Shown: positions 22-34,196 of the stretch, in pieces
Layout of the letters: the number at the start of each line of letters is the position of its first letter
How positions within the stretch are numbered: the first letter of the stretch is position 1
Translations under genes and position numbers: made by a program
The notes under the pieces: model-generated
Told to the model about the DNA's origin: nothing
The model's input: the letters and a program-made list of their open reading frames with translations, nothing else
Databases searched by the model: none
Assembly: GCA_023515795.1 (NCBI GenBank)
Contig: JALGPX010000120.1
Location: 1-35,479 of the forward strand
Reading direction: 5' to 3'
Length of the DNA: 35,479 nucleotides
Source: Amoeboaphelidium occidentale
Lineage: Eukaryota; Aphelidiomycota; Aphelidea

Positions 22-512
22 TCGGCTGTGGCGGCCGGGGTTGAAACAAGTAACAAACGGGAAGTTGCAAAAAAAAACATGCTAATTGCCCGTCCGAAGG
101 ACGGGGGAGACATCTAGTTTTGCTCGTATAAAAAATCTATTTCGTTTCTGTCGCTGTGACTTGCTTCTGCTTTTGTCGTCGATATTCCTCCAGTTCCTTC
201 ATTTGTTGACGCATAAAGGCGTTTGATGGCTCTTCCTTCTTTGTTGAGATGTTATGCTTTGATGCTANTCGGCTGTGGCGGCCGGGGTTGAAACAAGTAA
301 CAAACGGGAAGTTGCAAAAAAAACATGCTAGGTGCCCGTCCGAAGGACGGGGGAGACATCTAGTTTTGCTCGTATAAAAATCTATTTCGTTTCTGTCGCT
401 GTGACTTGCTTCTGCTTTTGTCGTCGATATTCCTCTAGTTCCTTCATTTGTTGACGCATAAAGGCGTTTGATGGCTCTTCCTTCTTTGTTGAGATGTTAT
501 GCTTTGATGCTA
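22..512. repeat. Direct duplication around a 1-base gap (villin gene 3' end)
   Basis: Copy A is 22-267, a single N is at 268, and copy B is 269-512. The copies differ by one A in a poly-A tract, by 'aatt' versus 'aggt' and by one C/T change. Both carry the last codons and 3' flank of the gelsolin-repeat gene. The pattern fits two overlapping contig ends or alleles joined by a scaffold gap. Bases 1-21 are outside the repeat and I recognise nothing in them. Confidence 0.9.
335..351 (-). other. 7-bp hairpin in the 3' flank of the gelsolin-repeat gene
   Basis: A perfect inverted repeat CCCGTCC-TTC-GGACGGG (minus-strand reading) starts about 30 bases beyond the stop codon. It is followed about ten bases later by a run of eight T. 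The duplicate contig end holds the same hairpin at 89-105. In a bacterium this would be called a rho-independent terminator. In this eukaryotic setting it is probably a 3'-UTR stem-loop of unknown role. Confidence 0.5.
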
Positions 513-3500
513 TTGCTTCACCTTGTGTTGCATCAATACCAAGAACTCTATGACCAGCAGGTTCAATTTGATATTTATCACCCCATCCCAGGAAGAACGC
601 TTTGAAATCAGCAGTTTCAGCACCTTCTCTTACCATAACCAAATCACATCTTAAAACGCCAGTAATTGTTGTTCTCTTTCTTGGAGCTTTTCGTTCTTCC
701 TTTGTTTTATCGCTTGTATCCCATTCAGATCTATCTAGAGATCTTCCGTCGTCTAAATGATCAAAATATGCATCAGCGCTCTTCTTTGCTAATTTAATAA
801 CGACATCACTAGCCTCTTTTCCAATCCATGCCCATAGCAGATTAGGTTTTCCTAAACCGGGAGCAGCGTCAAGTAAACACACAGTTTCACTTCTTAAATC
901 AGATACTGTGTAATTAAAGGATAAATCTTGTACTTCAAACTTTCCATTCTCTGTTGAACATCTAAACATTCTTGGAGGCGGAATGGAATAATAAAATCCT
1001 TGGCCATACGGGACAGGATTGGATGCAGTCGGTCTTTCAAATGTCGGAGCAATTAATGACCAAAAAGCCTTTGGCTCTGACTTCTCTTTAACAACCGAGT
1101 ACAGTGTAGGGGCAGACAAAGATGCTCTTGTAACTGATCCAGGATTTTGTTGTGGCTCAAGTCGGAGAGCTACCAGTCTGTTTACGATTGCATAAGCCTT
1201 TCTTTCCTCTTCTTTTGATGCACCTTTGCCAACCCATACAAAAGTATTAGATTCAGTATTAGGATCTAATCCGTTCTTGCCCGTATACATGATTATATAG
1301 ATATCTCTGGTGCACAGAGATGTAACCATTGGACATACTTGAACAGCACGGCAAACTTTGTATTTCAAGTCTGTTCTGACATGATACATAAACACATTAT
1401 CAGGGTTGATGCCATCAGCAGCATTTCTAGTCAAATCTTTGAGTGGTCTTGGAATGAGCTCTTCAAACTTTTCAGGACGGCTTCCGCGATGTACCACAAT
1501 TTCTCTGTCTAAATGAGCCAAGAATGCAATACTTTCTTTCTCCTGTTCAAAAAACACTGTCTTTATATCAATAGTTCCATCAATGACTTGAGATACTAGC
1601 TCCTCAAGAACGCTCTTAAATTGGAACTGGAATTGCAAGACTCCAAAAGAAGGTTTGCCAACATCACGTCCTTTCCACAAATAAATTGCGCATTCATAAG
1701 ACGTTTGCTTTTCTTCATCTGCTTTTTCTTGCTCTGAAAGGTCGGCTTTAGAGCTTATTGGGGATAGAGGAACGTCATCTTCAGTCTTTTCTTCCTCCTT
1801 CTTGTAAATACAAAGGAAAACATATGTCTCTTGACTCCAGAAATGGCATCTTTCTCTGCAGCCTTCTTGAGTCCATTCAGGCAATCTTAAATATCTGTTG
1901 GAGCTCTTTTCAAAGATGAAGCATTGCGTAGATTGTAGCAGCAAATTAGCCTTCTTGAACATTTGATCGATGATATCGTCTTCTTGAGTTGTATTCTTAC
2001 CGCTATAAGCAGGTGAATACAAGACTTTGATATCAACTTGAATTCCGCCTTCCTTCCTTTGCCTCTGATACTTCTCTTTAGCATCAATAGAACGAGCAAA
2101 AGTTGCTTTAACTTCACTGAAATCAACAGACTTTGATGAATTCTCCCAATAATGGAATCTTGCTTTGAAAGCTTCATTTTCAACTCCTTCCATCTGCTTT
2201 GAGTTGAGGCAGAACTCTGGTCTCTCTTTCAAAGGATAAATTTTGTTGATGAGAACAAACTCGACAATTTCTCTCAATTCCAAAGTAGATTTTCGTCCTG
2301 TCCAGAAGTAAATCTCGTTACCGCAGTCCAAGACAGCGCAACCTTGACTATTCAAAAGCTCCCTCTTTGGCAAAACCAGCTTTCCTGAATTGTTTACATT
2401 GTCAAGTGGATAAGCCTTTTGCATGCTTGGATGAATTGAGTTCACATTCTTCGACTCGCATTCAGGACCGAAAACGTAAAGGCAAGGAAGAGCATTCTGC
2501 TCCATTTCAGAAGAACATTCACCTGCATTTCTTCTGTCTCCGCCAAAAACATCCCAAAACTCATCAGGTTCTCTTGCATCCTGAACTTCAAACAGATCAG
2601 CTTTTCCAACTGGACGTTCATTACTTATAATCCTGTTTGCCAAGAACTTTCCTTGAATTCTGTCACCCAAAGAGCTCGACTTGCCCTGCCATAGATACAA
2701 AATCAATCCTCCATCAATCAAATAAACATGTTTAGAGTTAAGAGAATTCGGTGAAAGACTTATCAATTCAACAACGAGATCACCCATTAAAGACTCCTCC
2801 TTCGCCTCGCCTTTAATTGTTTTGCGAAGAAACCTCTTGCAACCGACACGATACATCAACACAGCGTATTCTCTTTCTTGAACAGTGAACAATCCGCTAT
2901 CAACTGCGTTGGTCGCGTCTGTCACTGTGTAGTCGATATTATTACCCAAGAACATGTTTACAAAGTTTTTACTGGCGTTCGAACTTTCTTCTCTGGAAAC
3001 TTTGGTTTGAACATTTAGCATGTCCTTCAAACCAACTGCATACACTGCTGATGATGCTTTCTTGTCTAACGAAGCCTCCTCTCCGACATATTGATAGACA
3101 CGATAGTCCAGTCTTCCATCATTCTTAGAGAAGCTTTCCAGAATAACATAAGCATCGCCCTCACAAAACGTTCCAATTTCATTCTTGCTTAACTCAACTG
3201 GTTTCATGTCTTCAATTCTAAAGACCGAAATACCCTCCTTCATTCCAACGCTAGTAGGAAAGAACTCAGAGTAGTCAACTATATTCTTTTGAATTGTTTC
3301 AGTCCATTTCTTCTTACTTGAATACGACTCAGCCGTGCCTTTTTCTGGCTTCTTGTCCTTTGACGCTTTTCCAGAAGTAAGATCATCGGAAGAGGCCCAA
3401 AAATCATCTTCACCATTCTTTTTCTTCATATCTTCCGCATATTTTCGCAACAGTAGAACTTCTTCGTCTTCTTTTACTTCACTGATACGCGCTAAAGAAC

Positions 3501-4122
3501 CTTGGAAGCGTTTCTTTCGTAGCAAATCCTCAACACGCCCATGATCCATAGCAGTTGTTTCAGCCAATGCTTTAACGAAAGCGTTACCTGCAGTCATAAA
3601 AGCATCAAAGTAAGATGGATTCTGAATGATCTCCTCCTCTCTGCGTCTTGAGAGCTCAAACAACTCCCTCTGTTTTGAGTCGATATGTGTAGACACAGAG
3701 AAATCAATACCGTAGAACTCAACGGGATGTATAGTATAACGCTTTGGACGAGGAGGTATCTTTTTCTTCCTTCTCAATAGAGCCAAGTCCTTCAAACGCT
3801 TGCGTCTCATATTGAACAGTTCCTTATCAGCATCTCTTCTGTTCCTATTGGCAGCACTCCTACTCTCGAACTCCTTCTTTTTCAGATCAGCTTCCAAGCT
3901 CTTGATATCAGCCCTTTTGAATGACTCTTCAATGGTCTTCCTTGTAAGATTCCTCATTGCAATATCCGAGCTCTGTTCCTTTTCTCGTGTAGCCAAACGA
4001 TCAACTTTTCTTGCTTCCCTTCTCAATGCCAATTCCTTTTCATACTTTTCAAGATCAGCCTTCCTTTGCTTCTCTCGCTCGGCCCTTTCCTGCCTGAGCT
4101 TCTCCACGATATCAGAGGGCAT
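382..4122 (-). CDS. Gelsolin/villin-repeat protein with charged N-terminal coil
   Basis: This 1246-residue single-exon gene starts at an ATG and ends in TAG. Residues 1-125 are very rich in K, R and E with heptad-like spacing and probably form a long helix or coiled coil. Residues about 126-245 are unassigned. Residues about 295-1130 hold what look like six divergent gelsolin-like repeats. Recognisable pieces are the G1-type 'VFRIEDMKPVEL' with 'GDAYVILES', the G2-type 'VYLIDGG..LYLWQGK', and the G5-type 'DIYIIMYTG' with 'FVWVGKGASKEEE'. The family severs, caps or bundles actin filaments, often under calcium control. I see no C-terminal villin headpiece; the protein ends in another short K/E/Q-rich helix. 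Length and order resemble the extended villin-like proteins of amoebae rather than plain gelsolin. Gelsolin-repeat proteins are unusual in fungi, so an actin role in amoeboid or zoospore motility is a reasonable inference. Confidence 0.85.
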   Translation of the reverse strand: MPSDIVEKLRQERAEREKQRKADLEKYEKELALRREARKVDRLATREKEQSSDIAMRNLTRKTIEESFKRADIKSLEADLKKKEFESRSAANRNRRDADKELFNMRRKRLKDLALLRRKKKIPPRPKRYTIHPVEFYGIDFSVSTHIDSKQRELFELSRRREEEIIQNPSYFDAFMTAGNAFVKALAETTAMDHGRVEDLLRKKRFQGSLARISEVKEDEEVLLLRKYAEDMKKKNGEDDFWASSDDLTSGKASKDKKPEKGTAESYSSKKKWTETIQKNIVDYSEFFPTSVGMKEGISVFRIEDMKPVELSKNEIGTFCEGDAYVILESFSKNDGRLDYRVYQYVGEEASLDKKASSAVYAVGLKDMLNVQTKVSREESSNASKNFVNMFLGNNIDYTVTDATNAVDSGLFTVQEREYAVLMYRVGCKRFLRKTIKGEAKEESLMGDLVVELISLSPNSLNSKHVYLIDGGLILYLWQGKSSSLGDRIQGKFLANRIISNERPVGKADLFEVQDAREPDEFWDVFGGDRRNAGECSSEMEQNALPCLYVFGPECESKNVNSIHPSMQKAYPLDNVNNSGKLVLPKRELLNSQGCAVLDCGNEIYFWTGRKSTLELREIVEFVLINKIYPLKERPEFCLNSKQMEGVENEAFKARFHYWENSSKSVDFSEVKATFARSIDAKEKYQRQRKEGGIQVDIKVLYSPAYSGKNTTQEDDIIDQMFKKANLLLQSTQCFIFEKSSNRYLRLPEWTQEGCRERCHFWSQETYVFLCIYKKEEEKTEDDVPLSPISSKADLSEQEKADEEKQTSYECAIYLWKGRDVGKPSFGVLQFQFQFKSVLEELVSQVIDGTIDIKTVFFEQEKESIAFLAHLDREIVVHRGSRPEKFEELIPRPLKDLTRNAADGINPDNVFMYHVRTDLKYKVCRAVQVCPMVTSLCTRDIYIIMYTGKNGLDPNTESNTFVWVGKGASKEEERKAYAIVNRLVALRLEPQQNPGSVTRASLSAPTLYSVVKEKSEPKAFWSLIAPTFERPTASNPVPYGQGFYYSIPPPRMFRCSTENGKFEVQDLSFNYTVSDLRSETVCLLDAAPGLGKPNLLWAWIGKEASDVVIKLAKKSADAYFDHLDDGRSLDRSEWDTSDKTKEERKAPRKRTTITGVLRCDLVMVREGAETADFKAFFLGWGDKYQIEPAGHRVLGIDATQGEAIASKHNISTKKEEPSNAFMRQQMKELEEYRRQKQKQVTATETK

Positions 4123-13493: not shown

Positions 13494-14288
13494 ATGACCA
13501 CTCAGTTTAAAGTTGGAGGTAAAATTGGCAGTAATGGCGAGACGCATTCGCATTCTCACTCACACTCGCATGATGGCGGGCATGGTCACAGTCACGACAA
13601 TATTGAGCTTCCTGGCTTGTTCACTCATAGGCCAATGCCTGACTTGGAAAGAAGAGACTTTGATGAGAGAGCATTTACTGTAGGCGTAGCTGGGCCTGTT
13701 GGTACAGGAAAGACTGCATTAATGCTTCAACTGTGCAAGCATTTTCAGAAAGATGGTTCAAGTATTGCAGCAGTTACCAATGATATTCTTTGCAAAGAAG
13801 ATGCAGAATTTCTCGTAAAAAACTCTGCTTTAGATGACGTGAGGAGAATTGTTGGCATTGAGACAGGCTCTTGTCCTCATGCGGCTATAAGAGAAGACAT
13901 TTCTGTAAATTTAAACGCTTTGGAATCGCTGCACGCTCAATTCAAAACTGATTTGCTCTTGATTGAAAGCGGTGGTGATAATTTGGCTGCGAATTTCTCT
14001 CGCGAATTGGCAGACTTCATTATTTATGTTATTGATGTCGCTGGTGGCGATAAGATTCCTAGAAAGGCTGGACCAGGAATTACACAGAGTGATTTGTTAG
14101 TTATCAACAAGACTGATTTGGCTGTGCATGTTGGTGCAGACTTGGGAGTTATGGACAGGGATTCTAAAAAGGTGCGACAAGGTGGTCCTGTGGTTTTCGC
14201 TCAAGTTAAGCATGGCGTTGGCGTGGAAGAAATTGTGAGACAAATCAAAGAAGCAAAACACGAAGCATTGAAGACTAAAAACCAATAA
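13494..14288 (+). CDS. ureG: Urease accessory protein UreG (GTPase nickel chaperone)
   Basis: A 264-residue single-exon protein. UreG hydrolyses GTP to drive nickel delivery into apo-urease with UreD and UreF. The N-terminus (residues 17-35) is a run of HS/HG repeats, the usual metal-binding extension of eukaryotic UreG. The GTPase core has the P-loop GPVGTGKT (67-74), 'VTNDI', the nickel-binding CPH (127-129), '[11 protein letters not shown]' (about 155-165), and NKTD (205-208). The match is strong across the whole length. The gene implies a urease elsewhere in the genome. A small GC hairpin followed by T5 (14348-14363) lies about 60 bp past the stop codon. Confidence 0.97.
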
Positions 14289-26059: not shown

Positions 26060-28773
26060 ATGGCCCACCACGGTTTTCCGAGAGGAGACTCAACCCAGAG
26101 TATACTGGAAGGCTCACAAGACGCTCTCTTCAACTCCGAGTCTTACAATGGAATACCTGACGCACAGCCACAATTGGGATGGCGGCCTTTGCCAATGGTC
26201 CAACCATCTCCAAGAAACAATGGCCCTGTACGTTCAGGCCCTTCAGATCCATTGAGTGACATGTCTGGTAACTTTTCTCCAACCGGAGATATCAGCATGG
26301 CCTCGACAATGTCAAGCAATCTACCGCCACCTTCCTTGTCAAGAGTCCCAACAGCTATCCACAGCTTTCGATGCCCTGTCGCTTCCGATGTGTTGAAACT
26401 TGTGGATGGACAGTACCGTAACGTGGACGAATTTCGTAAGGTTCTGTAAGATTTGGTTCTGATTTTAAGGTTACATGACATATACACCTGTGCTCTGCGA
26501 ACCGGAAGACTTTGCTGTTCCTGAGAATCAGTATTCGTTGAGACAAATGCGTATGAGACGAAGAACTGAGTTACTTATTGCAATTACCATGTACAATGAA
26601 TCTGATGAGTTCTTGATACGTACATTATCAGCTGTATTTAAAAACATTCGTTTCTTTTGTGAATTAAACTCTGGTGAACGAATTGGAACAAGAAGAGACT
26701 CTACTAAAGGAGCGTTAATAGGAAAGTTGAACGATGAGACATTTGTTGCTTCAAAGAGCAGGACAAATCCAGATTTGGAGGCTGGCGTCAGAGGTGATCA
26801 AATGTGGGACGAAGATGCTTGGCAAAAGATAGTTGTTGTAATTATTAGTGACGGAAGGACTAAAGTTCATCCTCGCGTTATGAAAATGTTGCAAGTTATG
26901 GGCGTGGTCCAGCCTGAAGTCATGTTGATGGAATCTACTGATCCGTTAGAGGAGCCTCCTAATAATCCCAAGAAACCAGTTCAGGCTCACCTATTCGAAA
27001 CCACATGTCAAGCAATTGTAGAAGAAGACTTAATGGTTAAAAGTGGCTCTAAAAACGGAGTTGTTCCTGTCCAAATGTTGTTTTGTCTGAAGGAAAAGAA
27101 CAAGAAGAAGCTTAACTCCCACAAATGGCTCTTTCGTGCATTCTGTCCTTTGTTGAATCCAAACACTATAGTTTTAATTGATGTTGGTACTCGTCCAAAA
27201 ACTTTAAATTCTATTTATCATTTGTGGAAAGCTTTTGATAGAGATGAGAATATTGCTGGTGCTTGTGGAGAGATTTGTGTCATGTTGGGCAAGGGCTGTG
27301 ATAATTGCAAATCAATTACAAGCCCTCTAACTGCAGCCCAGAACTTTGAATATAAGATCAGCAATATTTTGGACAAAACACTTGAGAGCTGTTTCGGCTA
27401 TATTTCTGTTCTTCCTGGCGCTTTTTCGGCTTACAGATGGGAAGCTTTACAAGACACAACCTCTGAAAATGGTCCACTAGTTCAGTACTTTAAGGGTGAA
27501 ACTCCAAAACCAAAAGGGAATGTTTTCAGTTCAAACATGTATTTGGCAGAAGATAGAATTTTGTGTTTTGAGCTGGTTGCAAAATACAATGCGAAATGGG
27601 TTCTACATTACGTCAAAGATGCACGTGCAGAGACAGATGTGCCAGGATCAGTTCACGAATTCATTTCTCAGCGAAGGCGTTGGCTGAACGGGACATTCTT
27701 CTGTCAGATTTACGCTTTGTTCCATTTACACCGTCTTTGGACAACAAGACACACTATCTTCAAAAAGCTTGCGTTTATGTTTCAATTCTTGTACTTTACC
27801 ATTTCGCTGATATTTAGTTGGTTCGCTATTGCAAACTTTTACCTCGCATTTTACTTGATTACTCGACAGACTTTGGATCCGGACATTTTTTGGCAAGAAT
27901 TAATATTTCAAGTTGTTAGACTCTTTTACTGGGCAATCATTATAGCTCAGTTTATTTGCTCTATGGGTAATCGGCCACAAGGTGCAAGATTCATTTATGT
28001 CGGTTCATTTGTTATTTTCGGTCTCATTATGATGTTTTTAACTGGTGTATCTGTCTATTTAATGGTTCAAATCTTCAGTAACTTAAACGGTTCAAGCTGG
28101 CTTTTGGGAGGCACCGCCACAACTTTGGTTATATCTATTGGATCCACATATGGTGTTTACATTATTTCTTCTTTGCTGTTTGGTGAAGCGTATCATATTC
28201 TATCATGTATGTTTCAGTATCTAACTCTTCTTCCAAGTTTTATCAATACCATTCAGATATACGCTTTCTGTAAGTTTTCTTATATTCGCATCTAATTATA
28301 TCTAAGGCAATACGCATGATGTTTCTTGGGGGACTAAAGGCGACACTGCTGCATCTACTGGACTAGAAAAGAAGGAAGGACAAAAGGCAGATTTGAGTGG
28401 AGATAAAAAGCCTGTTTCAACTGAGCCTGCTCAATTACCGCCAGAAGCCTTATCTTCATCTTACAGAAAAGCATGGGAAGAGATGGCTCACAGGCCAGAA
28501 GAACAGGTCGCTAAAATTGATGCTGGTCAGAAAAGAGAAGATTATTACAGAAACTTCAGAACATGGTTTGTTCTTTTGTGGGTTATGACAAACGGATTAC
28601 TCATTGCAGTTGTTTCATCTGAGACAATATCTTCTCTTCTTATTTCGGGCGGCAGCTCTGGTAATAGCAATGCTTACTTGGCATTCATTATGTACGCTGT
28701 TGCTGGATTCGCCATTATTCGTTTCCTCGGTTGCGTGTTGTATTTGATCATGAGAGCAGCAAGGGGTTACTAA
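26060..28773 (+). CDS. Chitin synthase, division 1 type
   Basis: Three exons, 26060-26435, 26470-28269 and 28307-28773, with introns of 34 bp (26436-26469) and 37 bp (28270-28306). Splicing gives 880 residues. The first splice joins 'DEFR' to 'YMTYTPVLCEPEDF'; the second joins 'IYAF' to 'CNTHDVSWGTKGD', a hallmark of class I-III enzymes. Catalytic features are 'ITMYNE', 'LIDVGTRP', 'AEDR' (about 485-488), and QRRRW at 526-530 in 'SQRRRWLNGTFF'. Several transmembrane helices follow, and two more near the C-terminus. The enzyme polymerises UDP-GlcNAc into chitin at the plasma membrane. The N-terminal 125 residues are P/S/G-rich and cytosolic. There is no myosin motor. The stop codon is 5 bp from that of the convergent gene. 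Confidence 0.96.
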
Positions 28774-28778
28774 TAGAC

Positions 28779-30539
28779 TTAGGATCTATTCAAATGATTT
28801 TCCAACTTTCTTTTCAAACTCAACACTTCCCTGTTCTTTTTTAGGATTCCGTAGTTATCATGGTAAAAATAATCCTTTGCATCATTCGCCTCTTCTATCT
28901 CAACTATTTCTTCGATTAATTTTGATGCTTCGGCAGGATTATCGCTTGAAACGGCACTTAAAGCTTTGCTTAAAGAGGCTTCTCGTTTAGAAAGCTTTTC
29001 ATCCGCAAGAGCTACAGATAAAACCTCTAGAAAACCATCCATTCCAATACCAGTTTTGGAAGAAACACAAAATATTCCTTTTGGTTGTATCCTGCATTGT
29101 TCTTGAATCTTCTTAATGAGTGCATCAACAGATTCCATTTGTTCGGCCTTTACAAACTCGCATTTACCTGGAATCAAAGGCATCACACTTTGCAATATTC
29201 CCTTTGCCAACTCTTCTTTAATACAACCCAATTCAGCAACAATAACTCCATTTGGCACTTTTGCTTCCCAATGATCGAAGGGACTCTTTCCTTTACCCAT
29301 TCTAGTTCCGACTGGTCTTTTACCACAAGGATGATTAGGATTGACTTTCAACCAAAACCTTCCACCTTTGATCTTTTTAATCTCTCTATACAATGAAGAT
29401 CTAACTTCTTGTAAGCATCTTTCGGTCATTCTGATATCTTCGAGAACTCTGACACCATAAGATCCAAATTCAATTTCATTTCCTAGTCGATTATGAACAT
29501 TATCCTCTTCTCGAAGTGGTATTCTTCCTCTTTTTGCAGTTCTTAAAACATCGCCTTGTGGGCCCAATGGTGAATTCTTGAATCTCATTCTTGTTGGAGG
29601 CAGCGGAGTCCGTATATTGATGCTGTCGCGTTTGGTAATAACAACAAAAGTGTCAGCATCTATGCTTTCGACTAATTCTTGTGGTAATTTCTTATTTTCT
29701 CCATAAACGTCATTCATGTCAATACAGAGAAGCTTCAATGGCGAGATTTCAGCTTGTTGAGTCGAATCTTTCAAAACCACTTCACGTCCACCAATTCTGA
29801 CTAAATTAGATACTGATGTTTCGCCTTGCATAATTGATTTTACAAGTTCAGTTTTTCCAGAGGATTTAGGCCCAACCAAGGATGCAGTGATTACTTTTGG
29901 TATGGTTTCCAAATGTTGCTTTATCTGAGCTTGAATGGTCGATACCTTCTCGCTTATCAATTTCTGCAAAGCATCACCACCACTTAGAACGTTGGCCTTT
30001 TTAAGCGCATCAACAAAATCCAATTCATCTTTCCATAAGGAGTACAAGGTCGATACACCGCCACCAGTTCTGGACAAGCGCGTTCTTCGTTCCGATTCTC
30101 CGTCAATTTTCAAGAGGCTGTGCACAAGAGGAATATTATACAGCTTAACTTCGCCTTTATCATATAAGCTATTCATTATACGTTCATAATCAACTTGCAT
30201 CACATCCGATGGCAGCTTAAGTGAATCTGCTTTTCCAAGATATTCGATTCTATTCCCAACCTTCACAACCAAGTCAGAGCCATTACACGCAGCAACAGTA
30301 ACGCCTTTTCCAGAACAAGCTACTCCAGTTATAGATTCAAAAAGCTTTTCCGATTCATTTGATATGAGTATCGCGTTTCCATCCGGCGCCTTCGCGTAAA
30401 TAGACTCGCTCTTTGATACCACATTCTGCGCATTGAACTCTTCTATAAGCTTGTATGGGTTAATTCGAGATTTTGCTTTAAGAGGCTGGGCTCGTACAGA
30501 AGCAGCAGCCGATGAGTAAAATCTCTTAACGGCGATCAT
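28779..30539 (-). CDS. Mitochondrial P-loop GTPase-like protein with ribosomal protein uL16m nested inside
   Basis: A 586-residue single open frame without gaps. The N-terminus (MIAVKRFYSSAAASVRAQ) looks like a mitochondrial presequence. Residues 217-305 begin a GTPase-like fold: P-loop GPKSSGKT (223-230) and a TKRD motif (302-305) after 'TFVVI', the G4 position. Residues about 314-465 are a whole mitochondrial L16: 'RFKNSPLGPQGD', 'KRGRIPLREE', 'IEFGSYGVRVLE', 'GTRMGKGKSPFDHWEAKVP', and 'LPIK..FV'-like 'LIPGKCEFV'. The GTPase fold then resumes with 'ESVDALIKKIQE' and 'IFCVSSKTGIGMDGFLEVL' (G5 SSKTG at 493-497). L16 is a large-subunit protein near the peptidyl-transferase and 5S rRNA region. 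The G3 motif is degenerate (CIDMNDVYG). A role coupling ribosome assembly to GTP binding is inference only. Confidence 0.85.
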   Translation of the reverse strand: MIAVKRFYSSAAASVRAQPLKAKSRINPYKLIEEFNAQNVVSKSESIYAKAPDGNAILISNESEKLFESITGVACSGKGVTVAACNGSDLVVKVGNRIEYLGKADSLKLPSDVMQVDYERIMNSLYDKGEVKLYNIPLVHSLLKIDGESERRTRLSRTGGGVSTLYSLWKDELDFVDALKKANVLSGGDALQKLISEKVSTIQAQIKQHLETIPKVITASLVGPKSSGKTELVKSIMQGETSVSNLVRIGGREVVLKDSTQQAEISPLKLLCIDMNDVYGENKKLPQELVESIDADTFVVITKRDSINIRTPLPPTRMRFKNSPLGPQGDVLRTAKRGRIPLREEDNVHNRLGNEIEFGSYGVRVLEDIRMTERCLQEVRSSLYREIKKIKGGRFWLKVNPNHPCGKRPVGTRMGKGKSPFDHWEAKVPNGVIVAELGCIKEELAKGILQSVMPLIPGKCEFVKAEQMESVDALIKKIQEQCRIQPKGIFCVSSKTGIGMDGFLEVLSVALADEKLSKREASLSKALSAVSSDNPAEASKLIEEIVEIEEANDAKDYFYHDNYGILKKNREVLSLKRKLENHLNRS

Positions 30540-30593: not shown

Positions 30594-33500
30594 ATGAAAT
30601 CTATCTGTGTGATACTTGTACTATTCATAGCCATTATTCTGAGCCTCGATCATTTTAAGACATTCTTATTGCAAGAGAATGCCGACACTTTGAAGTCAAT
30701 GGGAGTTTACAAGAATTCTATACTTTACACTGCATCTGCAGATATTGTGCAAAAGAACATTGAGACTGGTATGGTAGAGAGAACCTTCAGAGCACATATA
30801 AGATCAGTTTATTCCCTTATGGTAGTGAACAAGACTACAATGATCTCAGGTTGTTGGGGCAACTTGGTGATTCTTTGGGACCTTGAAACCGGTTCTGTCT
30901 TGAAGCGATACTCTCTTGGTTCCACTGATATTCTATTGAGTGGTCTTGTCCTAAGAAATAATCTTGTTTTGACAAGTGGTTTAGATGGAGTACTGAGAAA
31001 GATCGACTTGGATTCTGAAAGAGTTTCGATCATTTCTCGTCAAGACAACATAGTGACGTGTATACAAGCATACGGAGACTTTCTGTTCGCTTGTGTTCGT
31101 CAATTCCCACTGCTTAGAAAAATCAATATCTTTACTGGTGCTACAGTCGCAAGCCTTGTTGGTCATGAAGATCCTTGCACTACAATGGCATCTTATGAAG
31201 AAAATATATTCACAGCCGGAACTGATAAAAATTTTTTGCACTGGAATGCAAAAACCGGTGTGATGATTAAAGAGTTCAACAATATTGGTATTAGAGTCGA
31301 TATACTCGCTGTCTTTGATGGGTTCTTGTACTCGGCTGACAGATCTAATGCTGTCGTCAAATGGAACATTGACTCCGGAGACCCGGTATTTGTTCTTGAA
31401 ACTCCTGGTTTAGCCTATATTAGAGGCTTTGCCTTAAATAGCCAAAGTTTGTTCGTTGGAACAGATTATGGGGAGATTTTCGCTTTTGACTCTTTGAGTG
31501 GAAATCAGTCGAGTTTCTTAAAGGGCATTGAAAAACGTTTGGATTCAATTGTTCTGTGGAAGAACTTTGTTATAAGTGGCGATTTTAGCGGTTTCCTGAG
31601 TGCATGGGACACTTCCTCGAATGAAATCGAGCCTTATTTTAAATTAAGAACTGAACCATCATTCGTTTCTTGTTTGAGTGTTCTTAATGATTACATTTTC
31701 TTCACAGGATTAGATTATAGTGTCGTTCAGTGGAATTTATCCGACTTTAGCCTAATTAAAACCTTTAAAAGTCATCAGAATGAAATTCATTCTCTGGCTT
31801 TAAATTCAGAAGATTTGTTTTCCGCTGATATCGACGGAAAAATATTCTGGTGGAAAATAACATCTGGAATGATGCATAATGAGTTTGTATGGCATACAGC
31901 AGCTGTGTACACAATATGTTTAACGAATGATCGATTATTCTCCGGCGGTACAAGTCAGATAGTTGCAACATGGGATTTGACCACCCTAGAAGGTTCAGCG
32001 ACTTTCGATGCAATGTTCTTTATAACAGAATTATTGGTTGTTAAAGATTTAGTTTTTGTAGCCCATGGTGCTGGAATGTTGAATTTTCTTTTGGCATCGA
32101 GCGTAGTCGTTAGCCAACTTATAGAGCCATTCACGTGCCGAACGATGATTTCAGACGGGTTTAAACTTTATGGTGGTTTCACAGATGCAAAAATAAGAGC
32201 CCGAGATTTCCAATCGTTGAATATTCTCGAAATTTATAATGGCCACACAGACTATGTGAGTTCTTTGGTCATGAGTGATAGTTTGACTTTGTATTCGGCG
32301 AGTCTTGATGGTTCTATTAAAGTTTGGAATATGGCTACCAGAACTGTTGCATTCTCGTTCGAAGTTCGAACCGAAGCTGTTTCATCTTTATGCGCTATAG
32401 AAAATACTCTCTTTGTTGGATTACGCAGCGGCACTTTGGTTTCTTACAACATTCAAACAGCAGAATTAATTGGGTTTAATCAAATTCATCGAAAAAGGAT
32501 CTTTTCACTTCAGGTTCAAGGAAAAGAAATGTACTCAGCTGGAAAAGATGGCCTTGTGTTAAAAATGATTTCAACTGCTTCGAGCGACAAACATGTCATC
32601 TACAACAATACCATGGCTTCCATTCGGGGGCTTTTCATAACTGTAGATTATGTTGCTTTTGTAAAGTCAGAGACGGAGATATTATTTCGGAAAAACAATG
32701 GCTCTGATTACACATTTCAGACAATAAGTGCTATATCTCCAATTATTTCTTTAACTATATCAAGTTCGTTCTTACTTGCGGGATCTAGGTCGGGAAAGAT
32801 TTTCGCATGGAACTCCAAGAGCGGAAGTTTCATTTTTGAGCTACAAGGTCATAATTCTGCAGTCAATGATATTATTCTGGACGGACCTACTCTGTTTTCA
32901 GCATCTGATGACATGATGATCATTCAGTGGTCACTTGAAGAAAGACTGGCTATTAAAGTTTTGAGAAGACTGTCTGCAACTTCTTTGGGTCATCTTGGAC
33001 CTGTAAATTCATTGAGTATTTGTGAAGGAGCTTTATTCTCTGGAGGGGCCGATCTCACTACCAGACGCTGGAACCTCAATACCGGCGCACACGAGGATGT
33101 TTATTTCGGTCCAACCAAAGCGATTAATTCTGTACTATGTCATAACCAATCTGTGTTTTCAGGAAGCGAAGATTTTGCTGTGTACAATTACTATCCTTAT
33201 TTTGATGTTCAGAAACGTTCTACTGTTGATGCCAAGATCTCATCTTCAAAGAAGCGGAGAGAAACATTGAGAGTAAGATTAAGTACCCAAGATAATCAAG
33301 TTGGTGTTAGTTCTGATATTTGGGTTATAATTGCGGCGGCGGTCATGATAGTGATAATTACTGCATCTTTATTCATGTATTATCTGGTATGGAAAAGAAA
33401 GAAACGTAATGCAGAGCCAAGAAATCATGAATTTACTTCGTCCGATACTAATAGCTCCTCATTCGGTCTCACAACCATTGTAAATTCTTCGATCGGCATT

Positions 33501-34196
33501 TCAAAACACGCAGCCTTAGAAATTCCGTCTTCTTCTGTGGCAAGTCTGAAAAAGTTGGCGGCTGGCGGAGGCGGTGAAGTTTACTTGGCTACATTAATGG
33601 ACTCAAAACTGGTCGAAAAACATGGCCCTCAGGTAGTCCAAAAGATAGTATTCATAAGAAGTAAGATAAGCGAAGAAGCATTCTTCCAGGAGGTCGGAAT
33701 CATGCTTCTACTCTCATCTTATCCAAATTTTTGTCAAATAATTGGATACACACTTAATCCTATCGCGATGATTTTAAAGTATTATCCTGCTGGAAGCCTA
33801 AAAGAATGGTGCACAAACAATTCATATGGCAAAAATGCTATATTGAAGATATTGAGCGAAGTCAGTGGAGCCCTGGAAACAATGCATAATCACCATCTTG
33901 CTCACTGTGACATCAAACCGCAGAATGTTTTGATCGAGCTCAAAGAGATTTATCCAACATGCTTTTTAACAGATTTTGGAATCACTCAAATTCTTTCGGA
34001 GCAGGTTGTTGCAACCAAAATGTTTCATATAATCAACCAACGTGGCGTTTCCCTTTATTATGCTGCTCCAGAAGCTATTACTAATTTTAAAACAAAAAAA
34101 TACGCCAGAGTCGACTACAAATGTTATGACATCTATTCTTTTGCTTGTATCATCTATGAAGTTAGTTCGAAGAAAGCGCCATGGGCTTCTCAGTGA
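30594..34196 (+). CDS. Putative receptor kinase with extracellular WD40 beta-propeller repeats
   Basis: A 1200-residue single-exon protein. A signal peptide (residues 1 to about 22, 'SICVILVLFIAIILSL') is followed by about 880 residues of some twenty degenerate WD40 repeats, for example 'MISGCWGNLVILWDLETGS' and 'LYSASLDGSIKVWNMATR', enough for about three propellers. A single helix at about 908-931 ('WVIIAAAVMIVIITASLF') with a following KRKK stop-transfer leads to a cytoplasmic kinase domain. Kinase motifs are the Gly-rich 'LAAGGGGEVYLA' (about 986), a Lys in 'QKIVF', 'HCDIKPQN' (H1104, D1106), DFG at 1127-1129 and 'AAPE' ending near 1160. Helix F is 'DIYSFACIIYEV'. The frame ends right after 'KAPWASQ', so the rest of the C-lobe is absent. 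WD40 repeats are normally cytosolic. A paralogue follows directly downstream. Confidence 0.8.
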   Translation: MKSICVILVLFIAIILSLDHFKTFLLQENADTLKSMGVYKNSILYTASADIVQKNIETGMVERTFRAHIRSVYSLMVVNKTTMISGCWGNLVILWDLETGSVLKRYSLGSTDILLSGLVLRNNLVLTSGLDGVLRKIDLDSERVSIISRQDNIVTCIQAYGDFLFACVRQFPLLRKINIFTGATVASLVGHEDPCTTMASYEENIFTAGTDKNFLHWNAKTGVMIKEFNNIGIRVDILAVFDGFLYSADRSNAVVKWNIDSGDPVFVLETPGLAYIRGFALNSQSLFVGTDYGEIFAFDSLSGNQSSFLKGIEKRLDSIVLWKNFVISGDFSGFLSAWDTSSNEIEPYFKLRTEPSFVSCLSVLNDYIFFTGLDYSVVQWNLSDFSLIKTFKSHQNEIHSLALNSEDLFSADIDGKIFWWKITSGMMHNEFVWHTAAVYTICLTNDRLFSGGTSQIVATWDLTTLEGSATFDAMFFITELLVVKDLVFVAHGAGMLNFLLASSVVVSQLIEPFTCRTMISDGFKLYGGFTDAKIRARDFQSLNILEIYNGHTDYVSSLVMSDSLTLYSASLDGSIKVWNMATRTVAFSFEVRTEAVSSLCAIENTLFVGLRSGTLVSYNIQTAELIGFNQIHRKRIFSLQVQGKEMYSAGKDGLVLKMISTASSDKHVIYNNTMASIRGLFITVDYVAFVKSETEILFRKNNGSDYTFQTISAISPIISLTISSSFLLAGSRSGKIFAWNSKSGSFIFELQGHNSAVNDIILDGPTLFSASDDMMIIQWSLEERLAIKVLRRLSATSLGHLGPVNSLSICEGALFSGGADLTTRRWNLNTGAHEDVYFGPTKAINSVLCHNQSVFSGSEDFAVYNYYPYFDVQKRSTVDAKISSSKKRRETLRVRLSTQDNQVGVSSDIWVIIAAAVMIVIITASLFMYYLVWKRKKRNAEPRNHEFTSSDTNSSSFGLTTIVNSSIGISKHAALEIPSSSVASLKKLAAGGGGEVYLATLMDSKLVEKHGPQVVQKIVFIRSKISEEAFFQEVGIMLLLSSYPNFCQIIGYTLNPIAMILKYYPAGSLKEWCTNNSYGKNAILKILSEVSGALETMHNHHLAHCDIKPQNVLIELKEIYPTCFLTDFGITQILSEQVVATKMFHIINQRGVSLYYAAPEAITNFKTKKYARVDYKCYDIYSFACIIYEVSSKKAPWASQ

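Follow-up and report, generated by a model that had tools for sequence, protein, structure and literature searches.

A probable mitochondrial uL16 ribosomal protein nested in the G domain of an MnmE-like protein in the aphelid Amoeboaphelidium occidentale

Mitoribosomal proteins are known to carry lineage-specific extensions, and one GTP-binding protein, mS29/DAP3, is a permanent subunit of the mitoribosome. It resembles the case described here in that a GTPase fold is built into the mitoribosome, but it belongs to the small subunit and is a separate protein of an unrelated family. GTPases of the RbgA/MTG1 type have circularly permuted G motifs, in contrast with the fused protein, in which the motif order is G1, G4, insert and G5. 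RbgA/MTG1/GTPBP7 and Obg/GTPBP10 are large-subunit assembly GTPases whose cycle is tied to the entry of uL16, as described in excerpts of PMC10693566. They share with the present case a GTPase tied to uL16, but they are separate proteins of other GTPase families.

In the tRNA-modification GTPase MnmE (TrmE; MSS1 in yeast, GTPBP3 in humans), the G domain interrupts a helical domain, and the Cys (C451) of the C-terminal FC(V/I/L)GK motif is called crucial for tRNA modification (both from extracts of PMC12397908). E282 of Escherichia coli MnmE is the invariant catalytic Glu, which positions the attacking water, according to part of PMC2749940. Our protein resembles MnmE in the order and predicted fold of its N-terminal, helical and G-domain parts; it differs by the presence of mitochondrial uL16 (uL16m) after G4 and by the lack of the catalytic Glu and of the FC(V/I/L)GK tail. 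Yeast MRPL16, the fungal uL16m, has the same complete L16 domain with its RMGKGK loop, but it normally stands alone and has only short extensions (232 aa in 3j6b), whereas here the domain lies inside a domain of another protein. No description of an MnmE/GTPBP3-uL16/MRPL16 fusion was found among the matches listed from a full-text literature mostly without subscription journals and preprints.

Architecture of the chimeric reading frame

We analyzed a window of 35,479 nucleotides, i.e., the whole stretch of DNA to which all coordinates refer. Translation of its reading frames identified an ORF on the minus strand (30539-28779) that starts with ATG, contains no internal stop and encodes 586 aa. 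This ORF encodes a complete L16 domain, probably that of uL16m, between the G4 and G5 motifs of a GTPase domain. Its parts are as follows.

28779..30539, minus strand: whole ORF, 586 aa, an MnmE-like protein that carries uL16m between its G4 and G5 motifs; relatives have this plan too
30465..30539, minus strand: probable mitochondrial presequence, residues 1-25 (basic, Ser- and Ala-rich sequence, by eye)
29904..30404, minus strand: residues 46-212, corresponding to the N terminus and first helical segment of MnmE in degenerate form (profile match, NCBIfam MnmE, model helices)
29625..29897, minus strand: first G-domain part, residues 215-305, with P-loop and TKRD, G3 lost (motifs, alignment, model)
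29145..29606, minus strand: uL16m insert, residues 312-465 (Pfam PF00252 at 353-463; PDB matches including yeast uL16m at 318-469)
29004..29144, minus strand: second G-domain part, residues 466-512, with G5-like SSKTG (motifs, alignment, model)
28785..29003, minus strand: C-terminal helical MnmE part, residues 513-585 (model helices and alignment)
28833..28871, minus strand: YFYHDNYGILKKN, residues 557-569, the fused family's own motif at the position of the MnmE FCIGK (alignment, pattern scan)

A pattern scan placed the G motifs of the window protein at residues 223-230 (GPKSSGKT), 302-305 (TKRD) and 493-497 (SSKTG) and detected no G3 (DxxG) in this copy. Ribosomal_L16 (PF00252) matched residues 353-463 (E 1.8e-25; 89.8 bits for a cut-off of 27.9; profile positions 21-132 of 132) and was the sole Pfam family above cut-off in the window protein, which also scored above cut-off with TIGR01164 (87.4 bits for 76.85). 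The original prediction of an uninterrupted ORF with P-loop, TKRD, L16 and SSKTG in that order is thus borne out by the ORF, the Pfam match and the motif scan. In searches of the PDB with the window protein, bacterial L16 came first (76 bits) and yeast uL16m third (69 bits). With P0004, one of the relatives presented below, the two top matches were yeast uL16m (best 88.2 bits), and the best bacterial match scored 85.4 bits.

A joint alignment showed that L16 begins directly after G4 and stops ahead of the stretch leading to G5. An end-to-end fusion was ruled out, because G5 and helical parts follow L16; that L16 is an insertion, as originally proposed, is upheld by this alignment and by nine related protein clusters. 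The further proposal that the flanks form one fold agrees with the predicted structures, which place both flanks within one G domain, across the insert. In the model of the window protein, helices span residues 513-531, 535-545, 548-558 and 565-585. Residues 1-109 of this model have a pLDDT under 50, as do residues 311-328 and 330-356 around the start of the insert, and L16 itself is poorly modelled, with an rmsd of 5.8-15.6 to the L16 chains among the 50 matches listed.

Scanning the ORF (28779..30539) for the donor-like signals GT[AG]AG[TC] and GTATG[TC] yielded none, whereas an intron of 37 nt (GTAAGT...AAG, 28270-28306) is plain to see in the neighboring chitin-synthase-like gene (26475-28773, plus strand). 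There is thus no sign that the L16 part is spliced out. Together with the lack of donor-like signals, the identical order of the parts in the predicted proteins of relatives led us to reject a gene nested in an intron. A separate L16 start at Met318 was also rejected, since this Met is present only in the window protein, P0001 and P0008 and is absent from the other seven of the ten aligned rows. The third-position GC content differs little across the parts of the gene (22-38%), so that the insert is not marked as recent.

The chitin-synthase-like gene ends 5 bases before the stop codon of the chimeric ORF, on the opposite strand, which indicates that the genome is compact here. The plus strand has a long ORF at 30594-34196 that encodes numerous WD40-like repeats along with a hydrophobic segment and, at its end, a protein-kinase-like region. 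By eye, it reads as a membrane-spanning WD40-kinase chimera that may continue beyond an intron at 34196. Visual inspection of the window also identified a urease accessory GTPase similar to UreG, the N terminus of which is rich in His (13494-14288, plus strand), and a gelsolin/villin-like ORF of 1246 aa (382-4122, minus strand).

The fused family and its MnmE-like host

Nine further protein clusters, P0001 to P0009, have the same order of parts as the window protein, in the parts that they hold. Five were obtained in a search of approximately 5.8 billion proteins. A second search, restricted to long proteins and with the G4-L16-G5 segment of P0004 as the query, picked out 7 matches from 624 candidates and thereby added four clusters. 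The sources were lgn, jgi, ena and ncbi/nr, and the number of relatives is a lower bound. The search for the same architecture, called for by the original prediction, thus turned up a fused protein in another aphelid: P0003, the only named relative, is encoded on a 2.2-Mb contig of Amoeboaphelidium protococcarum (phylum Aphelidiomycota). P0001 has the same length as the window protein, 586 aa, and is 96% identical to it, with 26 substitutions; P0002 to P0009 are 30-45% identical to it. Five clusters (P0002, P0005, P0006, P0007 and P0008) begin inside the MnmE part and look truncated or differently predicted, and P0002, P0005 and P0008 are without the P-loop part.

L16 has a mean pairwise identity of 64% across the family, compared with 39% and 36% in the two G flanks and 24-25% at the ends. 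Selection is thus strongest on L16, whereas the flanks are retained under looser constraint. Of the 26 differences between the window protein and P0001, 17 fall among the 216 N-terminal residues, three in each G flank (95 and 50 residues), two among the 154 residues of L16 and one among the 71 C-terminal residues. Linker residues I-R-x-P-x-x-P are invariant in the alignment of the fused family. In a tree of window residues 305-510, only the grouping of the window protein with P0001 has full support (100/100); P0004 and P0006 group at 81/80, and five of the seven inner branches are unsupported, so that one loss of G motifs cannot be distinguished from several.

Profile comparisons identify the GTPase host as a homologue of MnmE. 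The original prediction of a GTPase-like domain stands as regards homology, and the family can now be named, but G3 is missing in the window copy. The NCBIfam MnmE model matched the window protein weakly (E 3.4e-4, residues 127-242). In an hhalign comparison, the profile of the fused family matched a fungal MnmE, P0042, with a probability of 99.7% over window residues 89-309. P0004 matched the MnmE model NF003661 at 2.7e-39 (135.8 bits, under the cut-off of 380) and L16 at 3e-28, and P0006 gave 8.1e-43 (under the cut-off for full members) and 3e-29, respectively. In Pfam searches with P0004, MMR_HSR1 was above cut-off and TrmE_N just below it (29.1 versus 29.8 bits). The flanks include the N-terminal and helical parts of MnmE besides the G domain. 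As the MnmE G domain is itself an insertion in the helical domain, the chimera is a three-layer “Russian doll,” with uL16m in the G domain and the G domain in the helical domain.

We compared the fused proteins with unfused MnmEs. The reference comprised 119 proteins from 120 listed of 252 matches, and the remaining one was P0004, the only fused protein among the matches listed. P0002 and P0005 fell under the length limit of that search. It was not exhaustive, since P0006 and P0007, whose MnmE part is the same, were missing from the matches listed. Among these matches, the C[ILVM]GK tail is present in 114 of 119 unfused MnmEs, and the other five end otherwise, perhaps by truncation. None of the ten fused proteins, a set that includes the window protein, has it; P0005 stops before the tail position. 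The pattern of the catalytic Glu, DT[AV]G...[VIL]ExxG, occurs in 118 of the 119 listed unfused MnmEs and in none of the ten fused proteins; it is absent from all five that have DTVG, and trivially so from the other five, which have no DTxG in the G domain. The two catalytic landmarks of MnmE are therefore missing in all ten fused members examined.

Nine of the ten fused sequences carry a YHxxYG(V/I)LxxN-type motif at the position of FCIGK; a pattern scan found it in none of the 119 unfused MnmEs among the matches listed. This motif (window 28833-28871) is a candidate contact site of a new function.

The nucleotide-binding motifs vary among the members. P0004, P0006 and P0007 have kept G1, G3 (DTVG), G4 (NK[RS]D) and G5 (SCETG), and P0002 and P0005, the starts of which are missing, have kept G3 to G5. 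G3 is lost in the window protein, P0001, P0003, P0008 and P0009, and altered motifs are found in the window protein (TKRD), P0001 (TKRE), P0008 (NQRD) and P0009 (SLTSK). Judging from these motifs, P0004, P0006 and P0007 may still bind GTP, and the window copy probably does not hydrolyze it.

Related genes in the assembly

The assembly to which the window belongs comprises 11.31 Mb in 204 contigs, and gaps of 1,026 and 3,534 N are present in two of five 10-kb stretches sampled. Two PF00252 matches were found in it, the chimeric ORF and an ORF of 219 aa that reads as cytosolic RPL10, in agreement with the expectation that no separate MRPL16 gene exists. The nested gene is the only uL16m gene found in the assembly. 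The mitochondrial DNA is apparently not part of the assembly, since cox1 was not found there. A mitoribosomal bL27-type gene is present.

We then looked for MnmG, the partner of MnmE, and for MnmA/TrmU. No TIGR00136 match, and thus no MnmG, was detected in this gapped assembly, and no MnmA/TrmU match either, whereas both controls were positive in 14 of 14 prokaryote genomes. PF01134 gave four matches in the assembly. The only one above cut-off reads as dihydrolipoamide dehydrogenase, and none of the three that were read is MnmG, the others being glycerol-3-phosphate-dehydrogenase-like and fumarate-reductase-like; the fourth had an E value of 0.235. If the assembly is near complete, this suggests that the whole mitochondrial pathway of wobble-uridine modification has been lost.

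No unfused MnmE emerged from the assembly with TIGR00450, which gave 11 matches on ten ORFs or stretches, none above cut-off. Eight of these loci encode proteins that we take to be NOG1-, Ras-, Rab-, YqeH- and eIF5B-like, two ABC transporters and an unassigned P-loop protein (C132). Hidden MnmEs among the other GTPases of the assembly were thus rejected for the eight matches read, a reading that left out the weak matches on C1 and at C95:49637. As the TIGR00450 matches did not include the window's own gene, a second, equally degenerate copy would escape that search. With a fungal MnmE as the query, the best match in the assembly was the chimeric ORF itself, at an E value of only 0.067, and with the window protein as the query, the assembly yielded, apart from that protein, a single match, at E 0.35.

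Contig C84 carries an ORF that reads as MTG1, below the cut-off of the family (approximately 40794-41840). In contrast to the genes of the window, this ORF has extended tracts of Gln, Gly, Thr and Asn codons, and the contig has unusual repeats and possibly belongs to another organism.

Origin and function of the fused protein

In our judgment, an essential uL16m has probably taken over the gene of a dead MnmE and keeps the MnmE fold as a lobe. The event would have been a single in-frame insertion of the uL16m coding sequence in an ancestral mitochondrial MnmE gene, within the loop that follows G4; that it happened once is assumed from the common junction, as the tree of the family lacks resolution. 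The chimera would have become fixed and the separate uL16m gene lost, presumably because uL16m is essential, and the tRNA-modifying function would have lapsed afterwards or might already have done so. The protein would be imported by means of its own presequence, and L16 would dock in the large mitoribosomal subunit, with the MnmE-derived G and helical parts remaining attached as a lobe at its N and C termini. Selection might maintain this lobe for folding, for contacts with rRNA or partners or for the timing of L16 entry. The flanks have kept an open reading frame and a predicted fold and have acquired a new C-terminal motif, which argues for a permanent lobe rather than mere baggage. According to excerpts of PMC8209004, the GTPases that fold the peptidyl transferase center (PTC) work next to uL16m; a domain attached to both termini of this protein could thus act at that step, and the lobe may contribute to docking, timing or stability.

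Conversely, the flanks could be removed after import. The chimera would then be a polyprotein, a single translation product from which a matrix protease releases L16 and whose flanks merely deliver the presequence, in line with the far stronger conservation of L16 and with the low confidence of the window model around the insert start (311-328, 330-356). However, the flanks are predicted to retain a G-domain fold across the insert, and the C-terminal motif of nine of the ten members and the invariant I-R-x-P-x-x-P linker would be needless in a discarded flank, which makes this explanation rather improbable. A protein that combines uL16m with the wobble modification of tRNA by MnmE is very improbable: P0004 and P0006 are clearly MnmE-homologous, but the Cys of FC(V/I/L)GK is missing in ten members, P0005 ending earlier, and MnmG was not found in the window's assembly. 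The degenerate G motifs of the window copy might evoke a pseudogene, an assembly chimera or a chance ORF. We give almost no credence to these possibilities in view of P0001, 96% identical over 586 aa, and of eight more divergent clusters, from four source collections; an assembly artefact is already refuted by these relatives.

The original prediction had also raised the possibility of a tethered GTPase switch. On such a reading, a GTP-binding G domain would couple its nucleotide state with the docking of L16, since L16 is suspended between the loops of G4 and G5, which grip the guanine base, and the protein would bring its own checkpoint to late assembly of the large subunit. P0004, P0006 and P0007, with all G motifs, and P0002 and P0005, with G3 to G5, are compatible with such a built-in assembly switch. 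We nevertheless hold it to be unlikely, because the catalytic Glu pattern is absent in ten of ten members, G3 is lost in the window protein, P0001, P0003, P0008 and P0009, and an MTG1-like ORF elsewhere in the assembly may indicate that the usual GTPase still serves. A switch driven by GTP is improbable in the window copy but may exist in P0004, P0006 and P0007, the members with intact motifs; the earlier interpretation is partly supported. There is a small but real chance that uL16m, strung between the G4 and G5 loops of a GTP-binding domain that still works, forms a cis-acting assembly checkpoint in the members with intact motifs, and that the switch has decayed into a lobe in the branch of the window protein.

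Whichever function the MnmE-derived lobe may have, the family shows that a foreign protein of approximately 150 residues can be accommodated between G4 and G5 of a P-loop domain. It represents a natural experiment in the loss of MnmE and MnmG, and it allows a direct test of what a GTPase fold does when attached to uL16, whose entry is tied to GTPase checkpoints according to excerpts of PMC10693566. If the switch were real, this lineage would have turned a tRNA-modification GTPase into a cis-acting checkpoint of ribosome assembly. The MnmE-uL16m chimera may also be a rare genomic marker for the aphelids, near the root of the fungi, if wider sampling agrees.
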